The notes below the pieces were generated by a model, which was given only the letters and a program-made list of their open reading frames with translations, ran no database searches and was not told the origin of the DNA. Shown here in pieces: positions 41,544-58,885 of a stretch of DNA of 64,000 bases (its first letter is position 1; each line of letters begins with the position of its first letter). The translations under genes and the position numbers were made by a program. Source of the DNA: an uncultured Pelagibacteraceae bacterium (GTDB taxonomy: Bacteria; Pseudomonadota; Alphaproteobacteria; Pelagibacterales; Pelagibacteraceae); contig CACLXL010000002.1 of NCBI GenBank assembly GCA_902610975.1, positions 1-64,000 on the forward strand, read 5' to 3'.

Positions 41544-42614
41544 TTAAAAACATACTAGATGGTCAATATAAATCGGAGACTTTACACCAAATTGTTCTGA
41601 CTTCTCGTGTTGATGAATGTGATGAGAGTGAACAAATACCGGTAAATGCTCGCCTTTTTTTGTTCTCAAAGTGTATATAAAATTTGTTCCTCTAAATTTT
41701 CTATCAACCACTTCCAATTTTAATTCACTTTGATCGTCATGAATTAAGTCCTCTGGTTGCAAAAGAAGTTTTACTTTAGAGCCTGATGGAAAATTATTTG
41801 AGAGCTTTCCCCTGATTTCACCTAATTCATCATGTTTAAGCCTATGAACTGCACACTCACTATCCACAACATGTACGTCGATAAAAATCCCTTTGTTTAA
41901 AAAATTCGCAACATCAATTGAATTTGGCTCATGATGTACATTATATGGCACGTCGTACTGTTTAAGTTCTTGGTCTAAAATAATTCCACATTTATCAGCC
42001 ATCGAAAAAGCTTCGTACGAATCATGTGTTACTATAATGGTTGTTAAATTTATTCTTTTTAAAAGTTTTTTAACAGAAACCTGAATTTCTTCCTTAAGAC
42101 TTTGATCTATATTTGAGAATGGTTCATCTAATAATAATAAATCAGGCTTAGAAATTAAAGATCTAGCTAATGAGACTCGTTGTGCTTCCCCTGCACTAAT
42201 TTGATGGGGATATTTTTCTAATATAGGTTCAATTCTTAGTAATTTAATTATTTCTCTAACGTCTATATTCGATCCATGGCCATTAGATCTTTTTTCTCCA
42301 AAATTTATGTTGTCAATTACTTTATAATTTGGAAAAAGAGAATTATCTTGAAAAGAAAGAGCTACATTTCTTTTTTCTGGCTCAATATGAATTTCGTCAG
42401 AGGCTAAGATTGTATCTCTAAGTTTTATCTTGCCTCTGCTAAGTTTTTGTAAACCGGCGATCGTTCTTAGAACAGTGGTTTTACCTATTCCTGAAGGTCC
42501 CAGCAAAGAAATAATCTCACCCTGTTTTTCTATTACTAAATTTACATTATTTACTTTATTTTTTTCACTTGCAGTAAAATTACCATTTTGAATCTCAAAA
42601 AAATTACTAGTCAT
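41544..42614 (-). CDS. fbpC: Fe(3+) ABC transporter ATP-binding protein
   Basis: GPSGIGKTTVLRTIAGL, SAGEAQRVSLARSL, LLDEPFSNID; adjacent to fbpB/fbpA. Confidence 0.88.
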   Translation of the reverse strand: MTSNFFEIQNGNFTASEKNKVNNVNLVIEKQGEIISLLGPSGIGKTTVLRTIAGLQKLSRGKIKLRDTILASDEIHIEPEKRNVALSFQDNSLFPNYKVIDNINFGEKRSNGHGSNIDVREIIKLLRIEPILEKYPHQISAGEAQRVSLARSLISKPDLLLLDEPFSNIDQSLKEEIQVSVKKLLKRINLTTIIVTHDSYEAFSMADKCGIILDQELKQYDVPYNVHHEPNSIDVANFLNKGIFIDVHVVDSECAVHRLKHDELGEIRGKLSNNFPSGSKVKLLLQPEDLIHDDQSELKLEVVDRKFRGTNFIYTLRTKKGEHLPVFVHSHHIHQHEKSEQFGVKSPIYIDHLVCF

Positions 42615-42627
42615 TAAAATGATTATA

Positions 42628-44244
42628 TTAATTTTTTTTTGAAAGTATATATCTAGATGACAGAAGTATCAAAATTGTAGACCAAAATATTAAAAAAAGA
42701 GATGGTAATGCAGCCGCTTCAAGTAAATCTTGGGATGCATATATATAAGCCTGAGTAGCAAATGTTTCGAAATTAAAAGGCCTCAAAATCATTGTCATGG
42801 GCAATTCTTTAATTACCTCTAGAGAAATCAATAAAATTATCAAAATTATATTTGTACTTAGATAAGGAACATGAATTTTTAAAAATGTATTAATCTTAGA
42901 ATAACCAAGAAGATAAGCACTTTCATCAATGGAATTATTTATTTTTTCATAACTTGATTTAATTCCATTGAAGGATAAAGAAAAAAACCTTATAAAATAT
43001 GCCAACAATAATCCAAAAATAGATCCGATGAATAAGCTCTTAGAACTTTTAAAATCAAAATTATTTGTAAAAAAATCACTTAAATTTGAAAAGAATGTAA
43101 TAAAAGCAACTGCTAAAATAACTCCTGGTATCGCGTACCCAGAAATTGAAAAAGTTGTAATATAGTTCAAAATTTTACTTTTTGATATTCTACTTCCATA
43201 ATTGATAAATAGGGAAATAATTACAATTATTACACTAGCTAAACCTACTAGCATTAAAGTATTCAAATTAATTTTTAATATATTGATATCTTGAAAATAT
43301 TTAGGAAATTTTATTGTCCAATAAATCATCTGGGAAACTGGAAAAATAAAACTCAATAATAAAATTAATGAACAAATAATAATTGGAAATACAGACTTTC
43401 TTCCAGTTAATTTGATTTTTGTAATTGGTTTAAACCCTCTGCCTGGCTGATGATATCTTGCTTCCTTTCTTGAGTAAATTTCTATCGAAAAAAGTAAAAG
43501 AATGAAGATTAGCAATATAAAAGATATCTGATTAGCCGTATTTAGGTCATCAAAAGATAACCAAGAATTATAAATTCCAGTGGTTAATGTATTAACACTA
43601 AAAAAAGATACAGTACCAAAATCTGATAAACACTCCATTGATACTAGAGCTAAACCTGCAATGATTGCTGGTCTTGCAGAGGGTAAAACTATTCTTAAAA
43701 AAGTTTCCTTTGTAGAAAGACCAAGATTTTTTCCTACCTCAATATAATTATTTGATTGATAATAAAATGATGCTCTTGTTAATACATAAACATACGGAAA
43801 CAAAGAAAACGATATAGATATTATGGCTCCAATTAATCCATCTATTTTTGGAATAATGGTATTATAATTATTTTCACCAAATAGAAATGTTAATAATGAA
43901 AAAGCAGTACCGTAATTTTCAAAAAAGGCAATTATTGAAAAAGCATAAATATAACCTGGAACTGCGAATGATAAGATTAATGCCCAACTAAAAAATTTGG
44001 ATAAAGGAAAATCATAAAAAGATACAAAATATGCTGAAAAAATTCCAAGAATAAAAGTAAAAAATATTACAAATAATAAAATTGTTATTGAATTAAAAAT
44101 ATAATCAAGTAAAAAAGTTTCTTTTAAAACGTAAAAATAATTGCTTGTCTCGCTAAAAAAGCTAAAAAAAACAGTAATAATAGGCATGGCAACCACTGAG
44201 GCCACAACCAGTGATCCAAAAAACCATACGTTATACTTTGTCAT
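42628..44244 (-). CDS. fbpB: Fe(3+) ABC transporter permease, fused double domain (start probably MTKYNVW)
   Basis: Two EAA-like loops (GKNLGLSTKETFLRIVLPSARPAIIAG; AYLLGYSKINTFLKIHVPYL). Confidence 0.9.
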   Translation of the reverse strand: MTKYNVWFFGSLVVASVVAMPIITVFFSFFSETSNYFYVLKETFLLDYIFNSITILLFVIFFTFILGIFSAYFVSFYDFPLSKFFSWALILSFAVPGYIYAFSIIAFFENYGTAFSLLTFLFGENNYNTIIPKIDGLIGAIISISFSLFPYVYVLTRASFYYQSNNYIEVGKNLGLSTKETFLRIVLPSARPAIIAGLALVSMECLSDFGTVSFFSVNTLTTGIYNSWLSFDDLNTANQISFILLIFILLLFSIEIYSRKEARYHQPGRGFKPITKIKLTGRKSVFPIIICSLILLLSFIFPVSQMIYWTIKFPKYFQDINILKINLNTLMLVGLASVIIVIISLFINYGSRISKSKILNYITTFSISGYAIPGVILAVAFITFFSNLSDFFTNNFDFKSSKSLFIGSIFGLLLAYFIRFFSLSFNGIKSSYEKINNSIDESAYLLGYSKINTFLKIHVPYLSTNIILIILLISLEVIKELPMTMILRPFNFETFATQAYIYASQDLLEAAALPSLFLIFWSTILILLSSRYILSKKN

Positions 44245-50316: not shown

Positions 50317-50676
50317 TTAGACGTATCTAAATACAACAACTGCATAGCCAATGCAAATTATTGTTGCAATCCACAATACACTTCCAACTAGAGCTAACCA
50401 AAATAAATGAATGAATGCACTGCCTAGTAATGAAATAAATAATCTATCGCCTCTAGTTGTATCTAATCCCAAAATTCCCTTTCTTGGGTTACCTCCTGGT
50501 GATTTTTTTTCCCAGATAACCATTGCTGTTAAACATAAAGCTATGAATATAAAAAATGCAGCTGTCTGCCAGGTCCATGCCATCCAAGTAATAAATTCGA
50601 AGTCGAAAAAGCTTTTTTCTTTTTCTTTAGCCATGTCACCCCATGTTGCAGCATTTAAAACGTTAAACATCATCAT
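50317..50676 (-). CDS. small integral membrane protein, DUF2160-like, of the glycerol ABC operon (GlpU-like)
   Basis: WMAWTWQTAAFFIFIALCLTAMVIWE; directly follows the GlpQ-like permease. Confidence 0.75.
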   Translation of the reverse strand: MMMFNVLNAATWGDMAKEKEKSFFDFEFITWMAWTWQTAAFFIFIALCLTAMVIWEKKSPGGNPRKGILGLDTTRGDRLFISLLGSAFIHLFWLALVGSVLWIATIICIGYAVVVFRYV

Positions 50677-51473
50677 ACTCTTCCTAATGCAAATCCTTTA
50701 GCTATATAGTTTCTTACAAAATAAATTACGATAGCACCCGGAATAATTGTCAAACTTCCTGCAGCAGCAAGTAGTCCTAATTCATATCCTGATGTACTGG
50801 CGGTTCTTGTCATTGTTGCAGCGATCGGTTTTGCTGCCACCGCAGTTAGTGTTTTTGCTAATAATAATTCAACCCAAGAAAACATGAAACAGAAAAACAT
50901 TGTAATACCTATACCTGCAGTAATTGTTGGAATAAATATCTTGAAGAAAAATCTCCAAAAAGAATAACCATCAACATAAGCTGTTTCATCTAGTTCTTTT
51001 GGTACAGAAGACATAAATCCTTCTAAAATCCAAACTGCCAAAGGAATATTAAACAAACAATGTGATAAAGCTACAGCGACATGAGTATCAAACAAGTTTA
51101 CTGATGAATAAAATTGAAAAAATGGCAAAGCAAATACTGCTGGTGGGGCCATTCTGTTAGTTAATAGCCAGAAAAATAAATGTTTATCTCCTAAAAATTT
51201 ATATCTAGAGAAAGCATAAGCTGCTGGTAGTGCAGCTGCGACTGAAATCACGGTGTTCATCACTACGTAATAAATAGAATTAAGATATCCAGTATACCAA
51301 GTACTGTCGGTAAAAATTTTTTTGTAATTATCTAATGTAAATTCTTGAGGCCATAATGTGTAAGTGTTTATAATCTCAGTTGTCGTTTTAAATGACATAT
51401 TGAGCAACCAATAAATTGGAAGCATCAAGAAAATAATATAAATTGTAGGAACTACCCACTTAGCTTTCTTCAT
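50673..51473 (-). CDS. glpQ: glycerol ABC transporter permease (GlpQ-like)
   Basis: DETAYVDGYSFWRFFFKIFIPTITAGI EAA loop; operon context. Confidence 0.82.
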   Translation of the reverse strand: MKKAKWVVPTIYIIFLMLPIYWLLNMSFKTTTEIINTYTLWPQEFTLDNYKKIFTDSTWYTGYLNSIYYVVMNTVISVAAALPAAYAFSRYKFLGDKHLFFWLLTNRMAPPAVFALPFFQFYSSVNLFDTHVAVALSHCLFNIPLAVWILEGFMSSVPKELDETAYVDGYSFWRFFFKIFIPTITAGIGITMFFCFMFSWVELLLAKTLTAVAAKPIAATMTRTASTSGYELGLLAAAGSLTIIPGAIVIYFVRNYIAKGFALGRV

Positions 51474-52336
51474 GATTTCTCCTCATTTCTCATCATTAAT
51501 GTGTAGAATACCCAACAAACTAAAAGCACTATAAAGAAGTATATCAACGACATTGCTGCAGCCGGTCCTAAATCAAACTGTCCTAATGCCATTTTAACTA
51601 AGTCTATAGATAAAAATGCAGTAGCATTACCTGGGCCGCCACCAGTTAAAACAAATGGCTCTGTATAAATCATGAAACTGTCCATGAATCTTAAAAGTAT
51701 TGCAATCGTTAATACTTTTTTCATTTTAGGTAATTCAATTTTCGTAAAAATTGCCCATCGACTAGCCCCATCAATTTCTGCTGCTTGATAGTAAGCAGGT
51801 TGAATAGATCTTAATCCTGCATAAGACAATAAAACTACTAAAGATGTCCAATGCCATACATCCATTAGAATAGTTGTGAACCAAGCATCACCAATTTGTT
51901 GAGTAAAGTTATAATCAAACCCCAAAGCATTAAGTGAATGACCTAAGAAACCAATATCTGGTAACGCAAAAATATTCCACATAGCTCCTACAACGTTCCA
52001 TGGAATTAAAAGTGGCATGGACATTAAAACTAAACAAACAGGTACTCCTATTCCCTCTTTAGGCATAGTAAGAGCAATAGCTATTCCTAATGGAATTTGA
52101 ATGAATAAAATTATAAATGTAAATAAAAATTGTCTACCAAGTGATGCGTGAAATCTTTCAGATAACATGATTTGTTTAAACCATCTTGTGCCTTCCCACA
52201 TAAAAACATTATTCCCGAAAGTTTCCTGGAAAGCATAGTTTACTACTGTCATTAATGGGATAATGGCATTGAAAGCTACCAGTACAAATACTGGTATTAC
52301 AAAGAACCATGCTTTTTGATTTACTGTTTTATTCAT
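51470..52336 (-). CDS. glpP: glycerol ABC transporter permease (GlpP-like)
   Basis: QAAEIDGASRWAIFTKIELPKMKKVLTIA EAA loop; operon context. Confidence 0.82.
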   Translation of the reverse strand: MNKTVNQKAWFFVIPVFVLVAFNAIIPLMTVVNYAFQETFGNNVFMWEGTRWFKQIMLSERFHASLGRQFLFTFIILFIQIPLGIAIALTMPKEGIGVPVCLVLMSMPLLIPWNVVGAMWNIFALPDIGFLGHSLNALGFDYNFTQQIGDAWFTTILMDVWHWTSLVVLLSYAGLRSIQPAYYQAAEIDGASRWAIFTKIELPKMKKVLTIAILLRFMDSFMIYTEPFVLTGGGPGNATAFLSIDLVKMALGQFDLGPAAAMSLIYFFIVLLVCWVFYTLMMRNEEKS

Positions 52337-53397
52337 TCAATTATCCAACTATCTCCATATGTATAAGTATATTCTTTTTTAAATTTCAAAAATGCAGATC
52401 CTGATGGAATATCTTCATTAGATTTTGCAATAATTTTAATTTTTCCGGTTTCACTTTCAGTATCTACAATTTTATGTCTACCAGTATTGCTTACCGATAA
52501 AACTTTAACTGGAATTCCTTCATTGCTAAAGGATATAAATTCAGGTCTAACACCAACTTCTGTCTTGTTAAAATTACTTTTTTTAATTTTTTGGTGAGTT
52601 TCTATTTTTTTTCCATTAACGATCACATCATTTCCTTTAATTTGACAAGGCAAAACATTCATGCCTGGTGAACCAATAAAATATCCAACAAATGTATGCT
52701 TTGGTTTTTCAAACAAATCTACTGGTGTTCCTGTTTGAACAATTTGACCTTCATGCATTACAACTACTTGATCAGCAAATGTTAAAGCCTCTGTTTGATC
52801 GTGTGTTACATAGATCATTGTTCTATTAATCTTTTGATGAAGTTCTTTAAGTTTAGATCTTAAAATCCATTTCAGATGTGGATCGATTACTGTTAATGGT
52901 TCATCAAACATAATAGCATTTACATCTGATCTTACCAATCCGCGCCCTAGTGAAATTTTTTGTTTACCATCTGCAGTTAGACCAGAGGCTCTATTGTTTA
53001 ATGTTGAAGATAGTTCCAACATTTCAGCTATCTCATGAACCTTTACTTTGATTTCTTCCTCTGGAATTTTTCTATTTCTTAAAGGAAAAGCTAAATTATC
53101 ATACACTGTCATCGTGTCATAAATAACCGGGAACTGAAAAATCTGTGCGATATTTCTCTCTACAGGATTCAACCCTGAAATAACTTTATCATCAAATAAT
53201 ATATCGCCTTTAGTTGGTGTAATTAATCCAGAAATAATATTTAACAATGTTGTCTTTCCACAACCTGAAGGGCCTAATAAAGCATAAGCGCCACCATCAT
53301 TCCAATCAATATCTACTCCTCTAATTGCCCAGTCAGCATCTGAAGACTGAGTTTTTAAATAACTATGGCTTAAACCTTTCAATGTAACTTTAGCCAT
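52333..53397 (-). CDS. glpT: glycerol ABC transporter ATP-binding protein (GlpT-like ABC ATPase)
   Basis: LGPSGCGKTTLLNI, MFDEPLTVIDP, VTHDQTEALTFAD; divergent signature SGLTADGKQKISLGRG. Confidence 0.85.
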   Translation of the reverse strand: MAKVTLKGLSHSYLKTQSSDADWAIRGVDIDWNDGGAYALLGPSGCGKTTLLNIISGLITPTKGDILFDDKVISGLNPVERNIAQIFQFPVIYDTMTVYDNLAFPLRNRKIPEEEIKVKVHEIAEMLELSSTLNNRASGLTADGKQKISLGRGLVRSDVNAIMFDEPLTVIDPHLKWILRSKLKELHQKINRTMIYVTHDQTEALTFADQVVVMHEGQIVQTGTPVDLFEKPKHTFVGYFIGSPGMNVLPCQIKGNDVIVNGKKIETHQKIKKSNFNKTEVGVRPEFISFSNEGIPVKVLSVSNTGRHKIVDTESETGKIKIIAKSNEDIPSGSAFLKFKKEYTYTYGDSWIIE

Positions 53398-54454
53398 TAG
53401 ATACTAACCTTTCATTTTGATCAAAATAAACAAATTCATCTGTATTCATGTATAGATTCATCTCATCGCCAACGTTTTTTTGAAAAACACCGTTAGACAA
53501 AGAAACCCAATTCAAATTTCCGTTTGTAAAGTGGATTAAGCTCTCAGAGCCACTAATTTCAGAAATTAAAACTTTACCTTTTATCTCAAGTGTATTGTTG
53601 CCCTCTTTATACGTAGTAATATTATGGGGTCTAATACCTACTTTATATTCACCATCTTTGATATTTAATTTAGTCCTCCATTGAATGTCATTTTGTAAAA
53701 ATGAACACTGGTCTCCTGATTTTTTTATTTTAGCAATATTCATTGGTGGATCACTAAAGACCTGAGCTGAAACTAAAGAGTTAGGTTTATTATAAGTATC
53801 TAAAGTTTTTCCATATTGAATAATCTTACCTTCCTGTAACGTTGCAGTATTACCGCCTAAGAGTAAAGCTTCAGAGGGTTCTGTGGTAGCATAAACTACA
53901 ATACAATCTCTATTTTCAAATAATTTTGGTAATTCTTCTCTTAATTCTTCTCTTAATTTAAAATCCAAGTTTGCAAGTGGTTCATCTAGAAGAATTAAGT
54001 CTGAGTCTTTTACAAGTGCCCTTGCTAAAGCAGTTCTTTGTTGTTGTCCTCCAGAAAGCTCATTTGGTTTTTTATTCAACATTCCAGAGAGTTTTAGTAA
54101 TTCTGCAACTTTACCAACTCTTTGTTTTGTTTCATCTGAACTTACTCCAGTAATTTTTAATGGAGATGCAATATTGTCATAAACTGTGAAATTAGGATAA
54201 TTAATAAATTGCTGGTAAACCATTGAGACATTTCTTTTTTGAACTTTCGTTCCAGTAACATTTTCATTATTAAACCAAATTTCTCCTGATGTTGGATTAT
54301 CAAGACCAGCCATAATTTGCATTAAAGTCGTCTTTCCGGCTAAAGTTGACCCTAAGAGAATATTAATTGTATTTTTTTCTAATTTTAAATTTGTTGGATA
54401 AATATGAGTATCTAACCCTATTTTTTTTTCTACGTTTTTTAATTCTAAGCTCAT
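53390..54454 (-). CDS. glpS: glycerol ABC transporter ATP-binding protein (GlpS-like)
   Basis: [45 protein letters not shown]-loop replaced by YATTEPSEA. Confidence 0.85.
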   Translation of the reverse strand: MSLELKNVEKKIGLDTHIYPTNLKLEKNTINILLGSTLAGKTTLMQIMAGLDNPTSGEIWFNNENVTGTKVQKRNVSMVYQQFINYPNFTVYDNIASPLKITGVSSDETKQRVGKVAELLKLSGMLNKKPNELSGGQQQRTALARALVKDSDLILLDEPLANLDFKLREELREELPKLFENRDCIVVYATTEPSEALLLGGNTATLQEGKIIQYGKTLDTYNKPNSLVSAQVFSDPPMNIAKIKKSGDQCSFLQNDIQWRTKLNIKDGEYKVGIRPHNITTYKEGNNTLEIKGKVLISEISGSESLIHFTNGNLNWVSLSNGVFQKNVGDEMNLYMNTDEFVYFDQNERLVSNG

Positions 54455-54522: not shown

Positions 54523-56256
54523 TTACTTCCAAGCTCTTTCGAATGGAACTGTTTTACCTTTAGGTTTTTCATTTCGTTTAGCTTTTGGTGATCCTGGTTG
54601 TTTCAACCAATAATCAGCACCTTTCGGTTTAGCTAATCTTGGACCACATCCACCGTATGTATTGTTTGCTTTATCAGCAGCTTCCATACGAGACATAACT
54701 AAGTTCATCTCTTCTGCAAGACGATCCATAGCTTGTTGTGGAGTAAACGCACCCGAATTTACATCTCCAATTTGTTGCCACCAGATTTGTGCAAGTTTCG
54801 GATAATCCGGAACATTGATGCCTGTCGGTGACCACAATACTCTGTTTTTAGATCTGTAGAATTCTACAAGTCCTCCAAGTTTTGGAGCTCTTTTAGTAAA
54901 GTGTTTGTGGTTGATTGTACTATCTCTAATGATAGTTAAACCAACATCACTTTTCTTAAGATCAACAGTTTTTGATACTACGAACTGAGCGTATAACCAT
55001 GCAGCTTTTCTTCTGTCAACTGGAGTAGACTTAAATAAAGTCCATGATCCAGCATCTTGATAACCAAGCTTCATACCTTCATCCCAGTAAGGACCTTTTG
55101 GTGATGGTCCCATTCTCCATAGAGGATTACCGTTATCATCAACTGTTTTGTTTCCAGTGCTCTTTGGAGCAACCATTGATGCCGTGAAAGCTGTATACCA
55201 GAAAATTTGCTGAGCAACGTTTCCTGATGATAAAGCTGGCAGAGACTGATAGAAGTCCATCGCTGCAGCACCTGGAGGTGCATAAGCTCTTAACCACTCG
55301 TCCCATTTTCTGATTGCATATACGGCAGCAGGACCATTTGCAGCCCCACCTCTTGCTACGTCAGCACCAACTGGGTTACAAGAACCTTTTTCCATTCTTA
55401 TTCCCCACTCATCTACTGGTACTCCGTTAGGTTTACCAACTGAACCTGCACCAGCCATTGATAACCACGCGTCAGTCATTCTCCATCCTAAGTCTGGAGC
55501 TCTCTTACCGTAGTCCATGTGACCGTATACTCTAACACCGTCAATATTCTTTACATCTTTTGTAAAGTATTCAGCGATATCTTCGTAAGCAGACCAGTTT
55601 ACTGGCACACCTAGATCGTATCCGTATTTAGCTTTGAAACCTTTTTTGATTTCAGGTCTGTCAAACCAATCTTTTCTAAACCAGTAAAGGTTAGCAAATT
55701 GTTGGTCAGGTAATTGATATAAATCACCATCTGGACCTGTAGTAAATGATTTACCGATGAAATCATCGATATCTAATGTTGGTAAAGTTACATCTTTACC
55801 TTCACCTTTCATCCACTTTGTTAAGTTTACAGCTAACTGAAGTCTTGAGTGTGTACCGATCAAATCAGAGTCATTGATATAGGCATCATACAAGTTTCTT
55901 CCAGTTTGCATTTGAGTTTGCACTGCTTGTACTACTTCTCCTTCTCCAAGTAACTGGTGATTAACTTTGATTCCAGTTATCTCTCCAAAAGCTTTTGTTA
56001 AAACTTTTGACTCATATTCGTGAGTTGGAATGGTTTCTGACAATACATTTATTTCCATTCCTTTGAATGGCTTTGCAGCATCATGGAACCAATTAAGTTC
56101 TTTCTCTCTTTCTTTTGCAGAAATTGTTGAAAGACTAAACTCACCATTTGACCATTTCTTAATTGCAGCTCCGTGTCCGTCAGCTACAGCGTTTGAAATA
56201 GTTAATAGAGAAATTGAAACAGCAACAGCTAAAATACTCTTCAATGTTTTAAACAT
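54523..56256 (-). CDS. glpV: glycerol ABC transporter substrate-binding protein (GlpV-like, 577 aa)
   Basis: Signal peptide; large family-1 SBP; operon with glpSTPQ-like genes and glpK. Confidence 0.83.
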   Translation of the reverse strand: MFKTLKSILAVAVSISLLTISNAVADGHGAAIKKWSNGEFSLSTISAKEREKELNWFHDAAKPFKGMEINVLSETIPTHEYESKVLTKAFGEITGIKVNHQLLGEGEVVQAVQTQMQTGRNLYDAYINDSDLIGTHSRLQLAVNLTKWMKGEGKDVTLPTLDIDDFIGKSFTTGPDGDLYQLPDQQFANLYWFRKDWFDRPEIKKGFKAKYGYDLGVPVNWSAYEDIAEYFTKDVKNIDGVRVYGHMDYGKRAPDLGWRMTDAWLSMAGAGSVGKPNGVPVDEWGIRMEKGSCNPVGADVARGGAANGPAAVYAIRKWDEWLRAYAPPGAAAMDFYQSLPALSSGNVAQQIFWYTAFTASMVAPKSTGNKTVDDNGNPLWRMGPSPKGPYWDEGMKLGYQDAGSWTLFKSTPVDRRKAAWLYAQFVVSKTVDLKKSDVGLTIIRDSTINHKHFTKRAPKLGGLVEFYRSKNRVLWSPTGINVPDYPKLAQIWWQQIGDVNSGAFTPQQAMDRLAEEMNLVMSRMEAADKANNTYGGCGPRLAKPKGADYWLKQPGSPKAKRNEKPKGKTVPFERAWK

Positions 56257-56360: not shown

Positions 56361-57842
56361 TTAATTTATTAAAGCTCTTTTGACAGCTTTTTCCCAGCCC
56401 TTAATAAGAATTGTTCTAGGTTTATTTTTCATTTTTGGTGAAAATTTTTTATCTAAGTTCCAGTTTTTAGAAATATCTTTTAATGATTTGTATATCCCTA
56501 TGTACAAACCAGCCATAAAAGCTGCACCTAAAGCAGTAGTTTCTTGAACTTTAGGTCTTAATACTTTTACATTCACTATGTCAGATAAAAATTGTGAAAA
56601 CCAATTATTCATTACCATCCCACCATCAACTTTTACAATTTTAGGTCTTAAACCGTCATGTTTCATAGCTTCAAAAAGATCGTGAGTTTGATAAGCAACT
56701 GCCTCGATCGTGGCTCTGACTATTTCTTTAGGACTAGTATCTCTAGTAATGCCGCTTAAAACTCCTCTAGCGTTAGCGTTCCAATACGGAGCTCCTAATC
56801 CAGTGAATGCTGGAACTAAATAAATATCATTGTTGTTTTGAAGTGATTTGACTATTTTTTCTGTTTCAGGTGCTTTCTTAAAAAATTTCATTCTATCTCT
56901 TAACCATTGAACACCAGCACCAGCTATAAAAATAGACCCCTCCATTGCGTATGTTGTCTTTCCGTTAATTCTATAAGCAATTGTCGTTAACAGTCGATTT
57001 TTTGAGTAAATTTTTTTAGAGCCAGTATTTAATAGTACAAAAGCTCCAGTTCCGTAAGTACTTTTCAAAGAACCTGGCTCAAAACAGCATTGACCAATGG
57101 TTGCTGACTGTTGATCTCCTACTACTCCGTTAATTGGAATTGATTTACCAGTTAATGAAGAGTGAGTTTTTCCATAATCATCTGCACAATCTTTTACTTC
57201 TGGCAAAATATGTTTTTTTATATTAAGTAGATTTAATATTGCATCATCCCATCTATTTGAGGAAATATTATATATCATTGTTCTACTTGCATTTGTTGCA
57301 TCCGTTGCATGAACTTTTCCTTTAGTAAGTCTCCAAATTAAAAAGGTATCAATCGTTCCAAATAGCAACTGTTTCTTATTCATTAACTGCCTTGCTTTCG
57401 GGGCATTATCTAAAATCCATTTGATTTTTGTACCTGAAAAATATGAATCAATTAAGAGGCCAGTTTTATTAAAAACCATTGTATCTTTATTTTGCTTTCT
57501 CAACTTTTTACAAAAATCTTCAGTTCTTCTATCTTGCCAAACAATAGCTTTGTAAACAGGTTTTCCTGTTTTTTTATCCCATAAAACCGTGGTCTCTCTT
57601 TGATTGGTAATTCCAATGCTTAAAATTTCGCCTTTTAAACTTTTAGCTTTTTGTATCACATCCTTTAAAGTTTTTATTGTAGTTCTCCAAATTTCATCTG
57701 GATTATGTTCAACCCAACCACTTTTAGGAAAATATTGTGTAAATTCTTTTTGGGAAGAAAAAATCGGCTTACCTTTCAAATCAAATAATATTGATCTATT
57801 AGATGTTGTTCCTGCATCAATTGAAACAATAAACTTTTTCAT
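56361..57842 (-). CDS. glpK: glycerol kinase
   Basis: SIDAGTTSNRSILFD, GITNQRETTVLWD, GDQQSATIGQCCFEPG, STYGTGAFVLLNTG. Confidence 0.96.
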   Translation of the reverse strand: MKKFIVSIDAGTTSNRSILFDLKGKPIFSSQKEFTQYFPKSGWVEHNPDEIWRTTIKTLKDVIQKAKSLKGEILSIGITNQRETTVLWDKKTGKPVYKAIVWQDRRTEDFCKKLRKQNKDTMVFNKTGLLIDSYFSGTKIKWILDNAPKARQLMNKKQLLFGTIDTFLIWRLTKGKVHATDATNASRTMIYNISSNRWDDAILNLLNIKKHILPEVKDCADDYGKTHSSLTGKSIPINGVVGDQQSATIGQCCFEPGSLKSTYGTGAFVLLNTGSKKIYSKNRLLTTIAYRINGKTTYAMEGSIFIAGAGVQWLRDRMKFFKKAPETEKIVKSLQNNNDIYLVPAFTGLGAPYWNANARGVLSGITRDTSPKEIVRATIEAVAYQTHDLFEAMKHDGLRPKIVKVDGGMVMNNWFSQFLSDIVNVKVLRPKVQETTALGAAFMAGLYIGIYKSLKDISKNWNLDKKFSPKMKNKPRTILIKGWEKAVKRALIN

Positions 57843-58885
57843 CTAAAAGACTCCCAATTTAATTCAAGTTTTTTATCTTCAACAATAGCATTTATCATAC
57901 TTAGCATTAAAGGTAATTTTTTTTCATCAAAATCTTCATTTACTTTTTTTGCAATCTCTTTTGCTAAATCTGCTCCTTCAACAGTAACGTTTTTCATTTT
58001 TGTTTTTTTGGCTTCTGAAAATCTTAAACCCTCTCCGATATAAGCTCCCATTTTTGCATTTCTTCCTCCTCCCGAGCTTACGTATAAATCACCCAACCCG
58101 GCTAATCCTTTTACAGTCTCCTTTTTTCCTTTAAGATGTTCTACAAAAATCTCCATTTCGAAAATTGACTGTTTTATTAAGGCTGAAGCTGTATTTAAAT
58201 AATTCTTTTCTCTAACTTCATTAGAGATATCTTTACCGCATAAACCTTTGGCTGCACCTACAGCCATTGAAAAAATATTTTTAATTGCTGCAGAAACTTC
58301 TACTCCATTTAAATCATCTGAATATGATGTATGATAATAGTTAGTATTCAAAATTTCAGATATTTTTTTTGCTGTTTGAATATCTTTGTTTGCTATAACA
58401 ACACTACTATGAACTCTATTGGCAAGTCCTGTTGCTAAACATGGCCCACCTACTGCTGAAATATTTATATTAGATATACCTTTATCAACTAATAATCTTT
58501 CTAGTTTATCAACTAATAATTCGTAATTATTTTTATAAATGCTTAAACCTTTAGTTAACATTAGTAAATTAGGTATTTTTTTATCTTTATAAAATCTACT
58601 TAATTGATCAGACACCCATTCTATTCCTTTTGAACTTATTCCCAACACTATTAAATCTACATTTGAATTTAAAAGTTGATCAAATTCTTCAACTTTAAAA
58701 ATCTTAACTTGCTCAGGGATTTGAATATTCAAACCAGGATGTAAATTTTTATTTTTTTTTAAATTTTCAATAAATTCATTTTCGAGGTGAGTTCCAATAA
58801 TATTTGTATCATGATTGTTATCTATACAAGGTAACGAAAACGCCGTACCCATAGCTCCTGCTCCAATAATAATAATTTTTGACAT
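57839..58885 (-). CDS. gpsA: NAD(P)-dependent glycerol-3-phosphate dehydrogenase
   Basis: IIGAGAMGTAFS, TKGLSI, GVEVSAAIKNIFSMAVGAAKG, GLAGLGDLYVSSGGGRNAKMG. Confidence 0.93.
   Translation of the reverse strand: MSKIIIIGAGAMGTAFSLPCIDNNHDTNIIGTHLENEFIENLKKNKNLHPGLNIQIPEQVKIFKVEEFDQLLNSNVDLIVLGISSKGIEWVSDQLSRFYKDKKIPNLLMLTKGLSIYKNNYELLVDKLERLLVDKGISNINISAVGGPCLATGLANRVHSSVVIANKDIQTAKKISEILNTNYYHTSYSDDLNGVEVSAAIKNIFSMAVGAAKGLCGKDISNEVREKNYLNTASALIKQSIFEMEIFVEHLKGKKETVKGLAGLGDLYVSSGGGRNAKMGAYIGEGLRFSEAKKTKMKNVTVEGADLAKEIAKKVNEDFDEKKLPLMLSMINAIVEDKKLELNWESFR

Follow-up and report, generated by a model that had tools for sequence, protein, structure and literature searches.

The glycerol importer of Rhizobium leguminosarum is encoded by a plasmid operon, glpR-glpD-glpSTPQUV-glpK, with two different ATPase genes, glpS and glpT. 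This operon type was reported to be necessary for glycerol utilisation in Rhizobium, according to the account of Ding 2012 given in PMC7912956. ABC ATP sites are composite: each is made of the Walker A and Walker B motifs and the A-, Q- and H-loops of one NBD, and of the signature of the other NBD (PMC7756269). A hallmark of degenerate sites, according to PMC7544095, is that the Walker B Glu is lost, ABCG5/G8 being described as a different pattern and an exception in this respect (PMC7756269). The effects of His, Glu and signature changes on ABC sites are treated in PMC7756269 and PMC7544095.

We analysed a 64,000-nucleotide stretch of DNA from an uncultured Pelagibacteraceae bacterium (hereafter the window), whose GC content of 29% is of the SAR11 type. 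Its minus strand carries a glycerol utilisation cluster, in the order gpsA-like, glpK, glpV, glpS, glpT, glpP, glpQ and glpU. The products of glpS (53390..54454) and glpT (52333..53397) were recognised as MalK-type ATPases from motifs, alignment and Foldseek. They are followed by the permease genes glpP (51470..52336) and glpQ (50673..51473), both PF00528, with respectively 70% and 77% identity to the R. leguminosarum operon, and by glpU (50317..50676), coding for a small membrane protein of the DUF2160 family (PF09928), of which no mention was found in the searchable literature. Upstream of glpS lie glpV (54523..56256; substrate-binding protein, PF01547, 60% identity to the R. leguminosarum operon), the glycerol kinase gene glpK (56361..57842; TIGR01311 above cut-off), and a gpsA-like gene (57839-58885) for an NAD(P)-dependent glycerol-3-phosphate dehydrogenase that has diverged from curated equivalogs. 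Glycerol as the substrate of the window importer is supported by the linked glpK.

The S, T, P, Q, U and V proteins, encoded by one operon in the window, are all 50-77% identical to those of the annotated R. leguminosarum operon, and on these identities the window transporter is the orthologue of GlpSTPQUV. The two loci share the STPQU order, a linked glpK, and non-consensus motifs in GlpS and GlpT: R. leguminosarum GlpS has GPTLAGKTS, ATTEP and LSGGQQQR, and its GlpT has GPSGCGKTS, LTADQKQK, LTVID and VTHDQ. They differ in that glpV and glpK are upstream of glpS in the window, and in that a gpsA-like gene replaces the neighbouring glpD and glpR. Since the operon type is needed for glycerol utilisation, as PMC7912956 relates from Ding 2012, this motif pattern is present in a working transporter. 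The gpsA-like gene adjoins glpK, at the place where the R. leguminosarum operon has its neighbouring glpD, and the dehydrogenase may have a role in glycerol catabolism. The nearest relatives of the window GlpS, 78-98% identical, belong to uncultured Pelagibacteraceae genomes. The importer is present in 25 of the 37 genomes of the window's genus (its own included) and in none of 24 from the sister family in the order, a distribution which suggests that it was gained or differentially retained within SAR11.

A sequence-only reading of this locus had proposed that the motif defects of GlpS and GlpT all fall in one composite site, and the motifs it quoted are all exact upon re-reading the window. 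In GlpS (coordinates on the minus strand here and below), the Walker A is GSTLAGKT (54329..54352), Leu replacing the second Gly, and the switch/H-loop VVYATTEPSEAL (53864..53899) has Thr191 (53882-53884) at the His position. The signature LSGGQQQR (54035..54058) is consensus, the Walker B LILLDEP (53978..53998) keeps the catalytic Glu, and the D-loop is LANLD. GlpT has a consensus Walker A, GPSGCGKTT (53248..53274), the Walker B AIMFDEP, an aromatic A-loop residue, Tyr13, and an H-loop, MIYVTHDQTEAL (52783..52818), in which His is kept; its signature is LTADGKQK (52957..52980), in place of LSGGQ. That SGLTADGKQK is indeed the signature follows from its gapless alignment to LSGGQQQR. Two deviations came in addition, the loss of the A-loop aromatic in GlpS, where alignment places the non-aromatic Ile12 (54419..54421), and the non-consensus D-loop LTVID of GlpT (52882..52896). 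GSTLAGKT remains within the P-loop pattern in its general form, GxxxxGK[ST], and it would be premature to take nucleotide binding as lost.

The D-loop is placed in the composite site on the side of the signature of its own subunit. With the standard geometry (PMC7756269), the five deviations all map to the site formed by the GlpS Walker A and the GlpT signature, and the other site is fully consensus; the confinement of the defects to one site thus holds for the original as well as for the added deviations. The chance that n deviating motifs all fall in one of two sites is 2 x 0.5^n, that is, for a single pair, 1 in 4 with three motifs and 1 in 16 with five. The arrangement in a single genome is therefore weak evidence, and a test of conservation was needed.

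We collected 149 GlpS/GlpT pairs: 91 from loci found via GlpS similarity, 57 from genomes recruited only via the neighbouring DUF2160 family, with no selection on ATPase motifs, and the window pair, a few pairs coming from genomes present in both sets. In GlpS, the H-loop His is found in 0 of 149 pairs, its position being occupied by Thr (140) or Ser (9), the signature is LSGGQQQR in 149/149, and the A-loop position is Val or Ile in 137 of the 149. Walker A position 4 is more variable, with Leu in 130 pairs, Gln in 8, Gly in 6 and other residues in 5. In GlpT, LSGG is found in 0/149; the signature has Asp at position 4 in 148/149 and Lys-Gln at positions 6-7 in 149, and the LTVID D-loop, the A-loop Tyr and the consensus Walker A are each present in 149/149. 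The GlpT H-loop His is present in all 148 readable sequences. Both proteins have the Walker B Asp-Glu in every pair (149/149), and the P-loop Lys and Thr of GlpS are invariant. The substitutions are fixed, with no drift, other than at position 5 of the signature and at positions 2 and 4 of Walker A.

The alignment across Alphaproteobacteria called for by the sequence-only reading, R. leguminosarum included, thus finds the pattern kept in every orthologous pair examined, and a homologue with intact motifs in both subunits, which would speak against that reading, was not encountered among the 149 pairs of orthologues. Its two GlpS defects fared differently: loss of the H-loop His stands, whereas the Walker A change is the least essential and least constant of the defects, the canonical Gly being present in 6 pairs. 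In one alphaproteobacterial clade, Gly at Walker A position 4 goes with a Ser in the switch of GlpS and with LSPDN as the GlpT signature. We rejected the idea that this lineage represents an ancestral intact state: in the tree it arises within the Leu clade, with an Asn form as its sister, so the Gly state is derived and amounts to a partial reversal. Leu at Walker A position 4 is accompanied by Thr at GlpT signature position 2 in 124 of 130 pairs, as against 4 of the 19 pairs without Leu. These raw counts might be taken for strong covariation at the interface, a reading that was rejected, as the tree of pairs (113 pairs below 88% identity) leaves only 4-5 independent changes; on the tree, interface covariation is consistent with a shared site, and not significant.

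As controls, we used about 40 further ATPases of the CUT1 type or related to it, among them MalK and UgpC of E. coli and a UgpC-like protein elsewhere in the window. Their Walker A and His are canonical, their signatures are LSGG save for a few exceptions (ISAGE, LAGGD, LSSGD), and their D-loops are of the LSNLD/LGALD type, in contrast to LTVID in GlpT. With a one-sided pattern in 149 pairs, and almost no such deviations in these related ATPases, the motif asymmetry is not due to chance. Another ABC ATPase of the window, at about 41548-42669 on the minus strand (also in L230, 11548-12669), has the signature ISAGE with a canonical Walker A and His. Weak DUF2160 matches (L188-L190, L231-L236) were rejected as glpST loci: they are single-ATPase CUT1 importers with GlpP/GlpQ-like permeases, a short DUF2160-like protein, and motifs that are all canonical.

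Alternatively, the deviations might reflect degenerative drift in the streamlined genome of a SAR11 host. This would fit with a genome that is small and AT-rich, and with the lack of the gene in the 24 sister-family genomes sampled. Yet the same residues are fixed throughout the Alpha-, Beta- and Gammaproteobacteria sampled, also in large genomes and in the operons of Rhizobium, and the gene is present in 25 of 37 genomes of the genus, with no internal stops in the copies listed. Drift is therefore hardly credible as an explanation.

The GlpS and GlpT models have a mean pLDDT of 90-91, and both give full-length Foldseek matches to MalK-type structures (TM about 0.8-0.87), while GlpT is just below the Pfam OB_MalK cut-off and GlpS has no match to this family. 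On these models, each protein is an NBD followed by a C-terminal MalK-like regulatory (OB) domain, and belongs to the CUT1/MalK type. Two such complete folds, each predicted with its own C-terminal domain, might form separate homodimers with separate roles, one of them regulatory for instance, all the more as MalK relatives are homodimeric as a rule. Several observations make this very unlikely. The two ATPase genes are side by side at 57/57 full-length DUF2160 loci, together with two different permeases, and GlpS keeps precisely what GlpT is missing, and vice versa. Moreover, a homodimer of either protein would carry two defective sites and could form no consensus site, which we counted in favour of a heterodimer.

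From the conserved motifs, we consider it probable that the ATPase of this CUT1 glycerol importer is an obligate heterodimer of GlpS and GlpT, in which one site matches the consensus and the other departs from it in a conserved way. In site 1, the Walker A and B, A-loop and His of GlpT would meet the LSGGQ and D-loop of GlpS; every motif there follows the consensus, and ATP hydrolysis is predicted. In site 2, the Walker A and B of GlpS would face the LTAD signature and TVID D-loop of GlpT, and the catalytic His, the A-loop aromatic and the contacts normally made by LSGG are all lacking. The prediction for this site is that bound ATP has a structural or gating role and is hydrolysed slowly or not at all, so that the transporter would spend about one ATP per cycle. 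That the two proteins dimerise with each other, that site 2 binds ATP without hydrolysing it, and this stoichiometry are what we infer from the motifs. As site 2 has lost its His, the glycines of the signature and the residue that stacks on adenine, its ATP binding is probably weak or structural and its turnover slow or nil; given a GlpS Walker A that matches GxxxxGK[ST] and an invariant Walker B Glu, ATP binding is likely, and there may be residual hydrolysis.

Site 2 shows one feature of degenerate sites, non-consensus motifs in one composite site facing a fully consensus one, and not the other, replacement of the Walker B catalytic Glu, which is there in 149/149 in GlpS and GlpT alike. This Glu in GlpS, the intact P-loop Lys and Thr, the Gly of 6 pairs and the non-significant covariation are points against the reading as a heterodimer with two unequal sites, and with both Walker B Glu intact and the Walker A change the least essential, a strict one-active-site reading appears weakened. 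Both sites might then hydrolyse ATP, site 2 being re-engineered yet active, with the GlpS Glu acting and the GlpS Thr and GlpT Thr-Ala-Asp replacing the His and Ser-Gly-Gly contacts. The invariance of the Walker B Asp-Glu and of the P-loop Lys and Thr in GlpS would agree with this, as would the altered residues being as strongly conserved as active ones. On the other side, the H-loop His and the catalytic Glu are both described as needed for efficient hydrolysis (PMC7544095), the signature is changed in all human degenerate sites (PMC7756269), and in GlpS/GlpT the His, the signature and the A-loop deviate jointly. On balance we find activity at both sites unlikely, though less so than separate homodimers, and prefer a heterodimer with a single consensus site.

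A second two-ATPase CUT1 system was found (L227-L229, L237-L247), in which Walker A, His and Glu are intact in both ATPases, and signature changes in the first ATPase are only mild (LAGGD, LSSGD). It adjoins dihydroxyacetone-kinase genes in all three loci inspected (in L228 Pfam identifies DhaL; in L227 and L229 the genes look DhaK/DhaL-like on visual inspection), and is a candidate importer of dihydroxyacetone or of a triose or polyol. These loci span L227 4514-8237, L228 1122-9745 and L229 5043-8801, and L228 also contains PTS EIIA/HPr/EI genes. In a tree of 100 ATPases, GlpS forms one clade and GlpT another (support 100 each), and the first gene of the second system is sister to GlpT (SH-aLRT 90). 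The tree does not settle the placement of GlpS, which has the Thr of GxTxxGKT in common with the second gene of this system. The possibility that having two ATPases is by itself what leads to degeneracy was rejected, the dihydroxyacetone-kinase-linked pairs being intact. The simplest history would be a single change to asymmetry, in an intact two-ATPase importer at the base of the glycerol family. More tentatively, and with rather less than even confidence, we propose that site 2 is a permanently rebuilt site (Thr for His, TAD for SGG, a TVID D-loop) in which the Glu is kept, hence a distinct non-consensus class, which became fixed a single time when the family arose out of the intact importer still visible beside the dihydroxyacetone-kinase genes, and that this type I importer may run on one ATP per cycle.

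Work on the mechanism of type I importers has relied for the most part on MalFGK2, in which the two ATPases are identical, so that mutating only one of them requires engineering. GlpS and GlpT offer a natural, genetically separable pair for testing the role of each ATP site by subunit, with built-in controls in the intact sister pair and in the lineage with a regained Walker A Gly. Compared to GlpS/GlpT, the dihydroxyacetone-kinase-linked importer likewise has tandem ATPases, the first sister to GlpT and the second sharing the GxTxxGKT Thr with GlpS, but Walker A, His and Glu are intact in both, and only the first departs from consensus, by LAGGD or LSSGD. The heterodimeric type IV exporters TM287/288, BmrCD, TAP, CFTR and Pdr5 also distribute over two NBDs one consensus site and one site with a changed signature, and often a changed H-loop (PMC7756269); they differ in being exporters, and in that the Walker B Glu is usually lost, whereas GlpS keeps it. 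For Pdr5, the asymmetry is reported to be required for function (PMC7756269).

Such asymmetry had been called unusual for a solute importer, which is overstated. LivF and LivG, the ATPases of a textbook importer of branched-chain amino acids, examined in E. coli, in the genome of the window and in loci sampled from Alphaproteobacteria (L254, L256, L262-L291; E. coli livF and livG, L261 225-1707), have the same cross-subunit pattern. In LivF, the H-loop His is replaced by Gln in 33/33 and the Q-loop Gln by Glu in 32/33, with an intact signature; in LivG, the His is kept in 31/31 and the signature is mostly LPYG, LAYG or similar instead of LSGG. As in GlpS/GlpT, LivFGHM (HAAT) thus has two different ATPases, an H-loop defect in LivF and a signature defect in LivG within one composite site, and the Walker B Glu kept. 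It differs by its ATPase family, the canonical Walker A of LivF, the Q-loop change, the LPYG or LAYG of LivG, and the absence of a MalK-type C-terminal domain. The importers RbsA and NupO were also reported with one degenerate ATP site (PMC11466899); in these CUT2-type systems, the two NBDs are fused in one chain and the second Walker A has lost its Lys, which GlpS keeps. The new element here is that, throughout a family of the MalK/CUT1 class, the deviations are fixed in one site, while the Glu is kept and a sister system is intact; no prior description of it was found in the searchable literature, which left out the original 2012 operon study. Asymmetric sites in importers bear on the ATP cost of nutrient uptake, a matter relevant to an oligotroph such as SAR11. 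Taken together, LivFG, RbsA and GlpST suggest that asymmetric ATP sites are widespread among bacterial importers.
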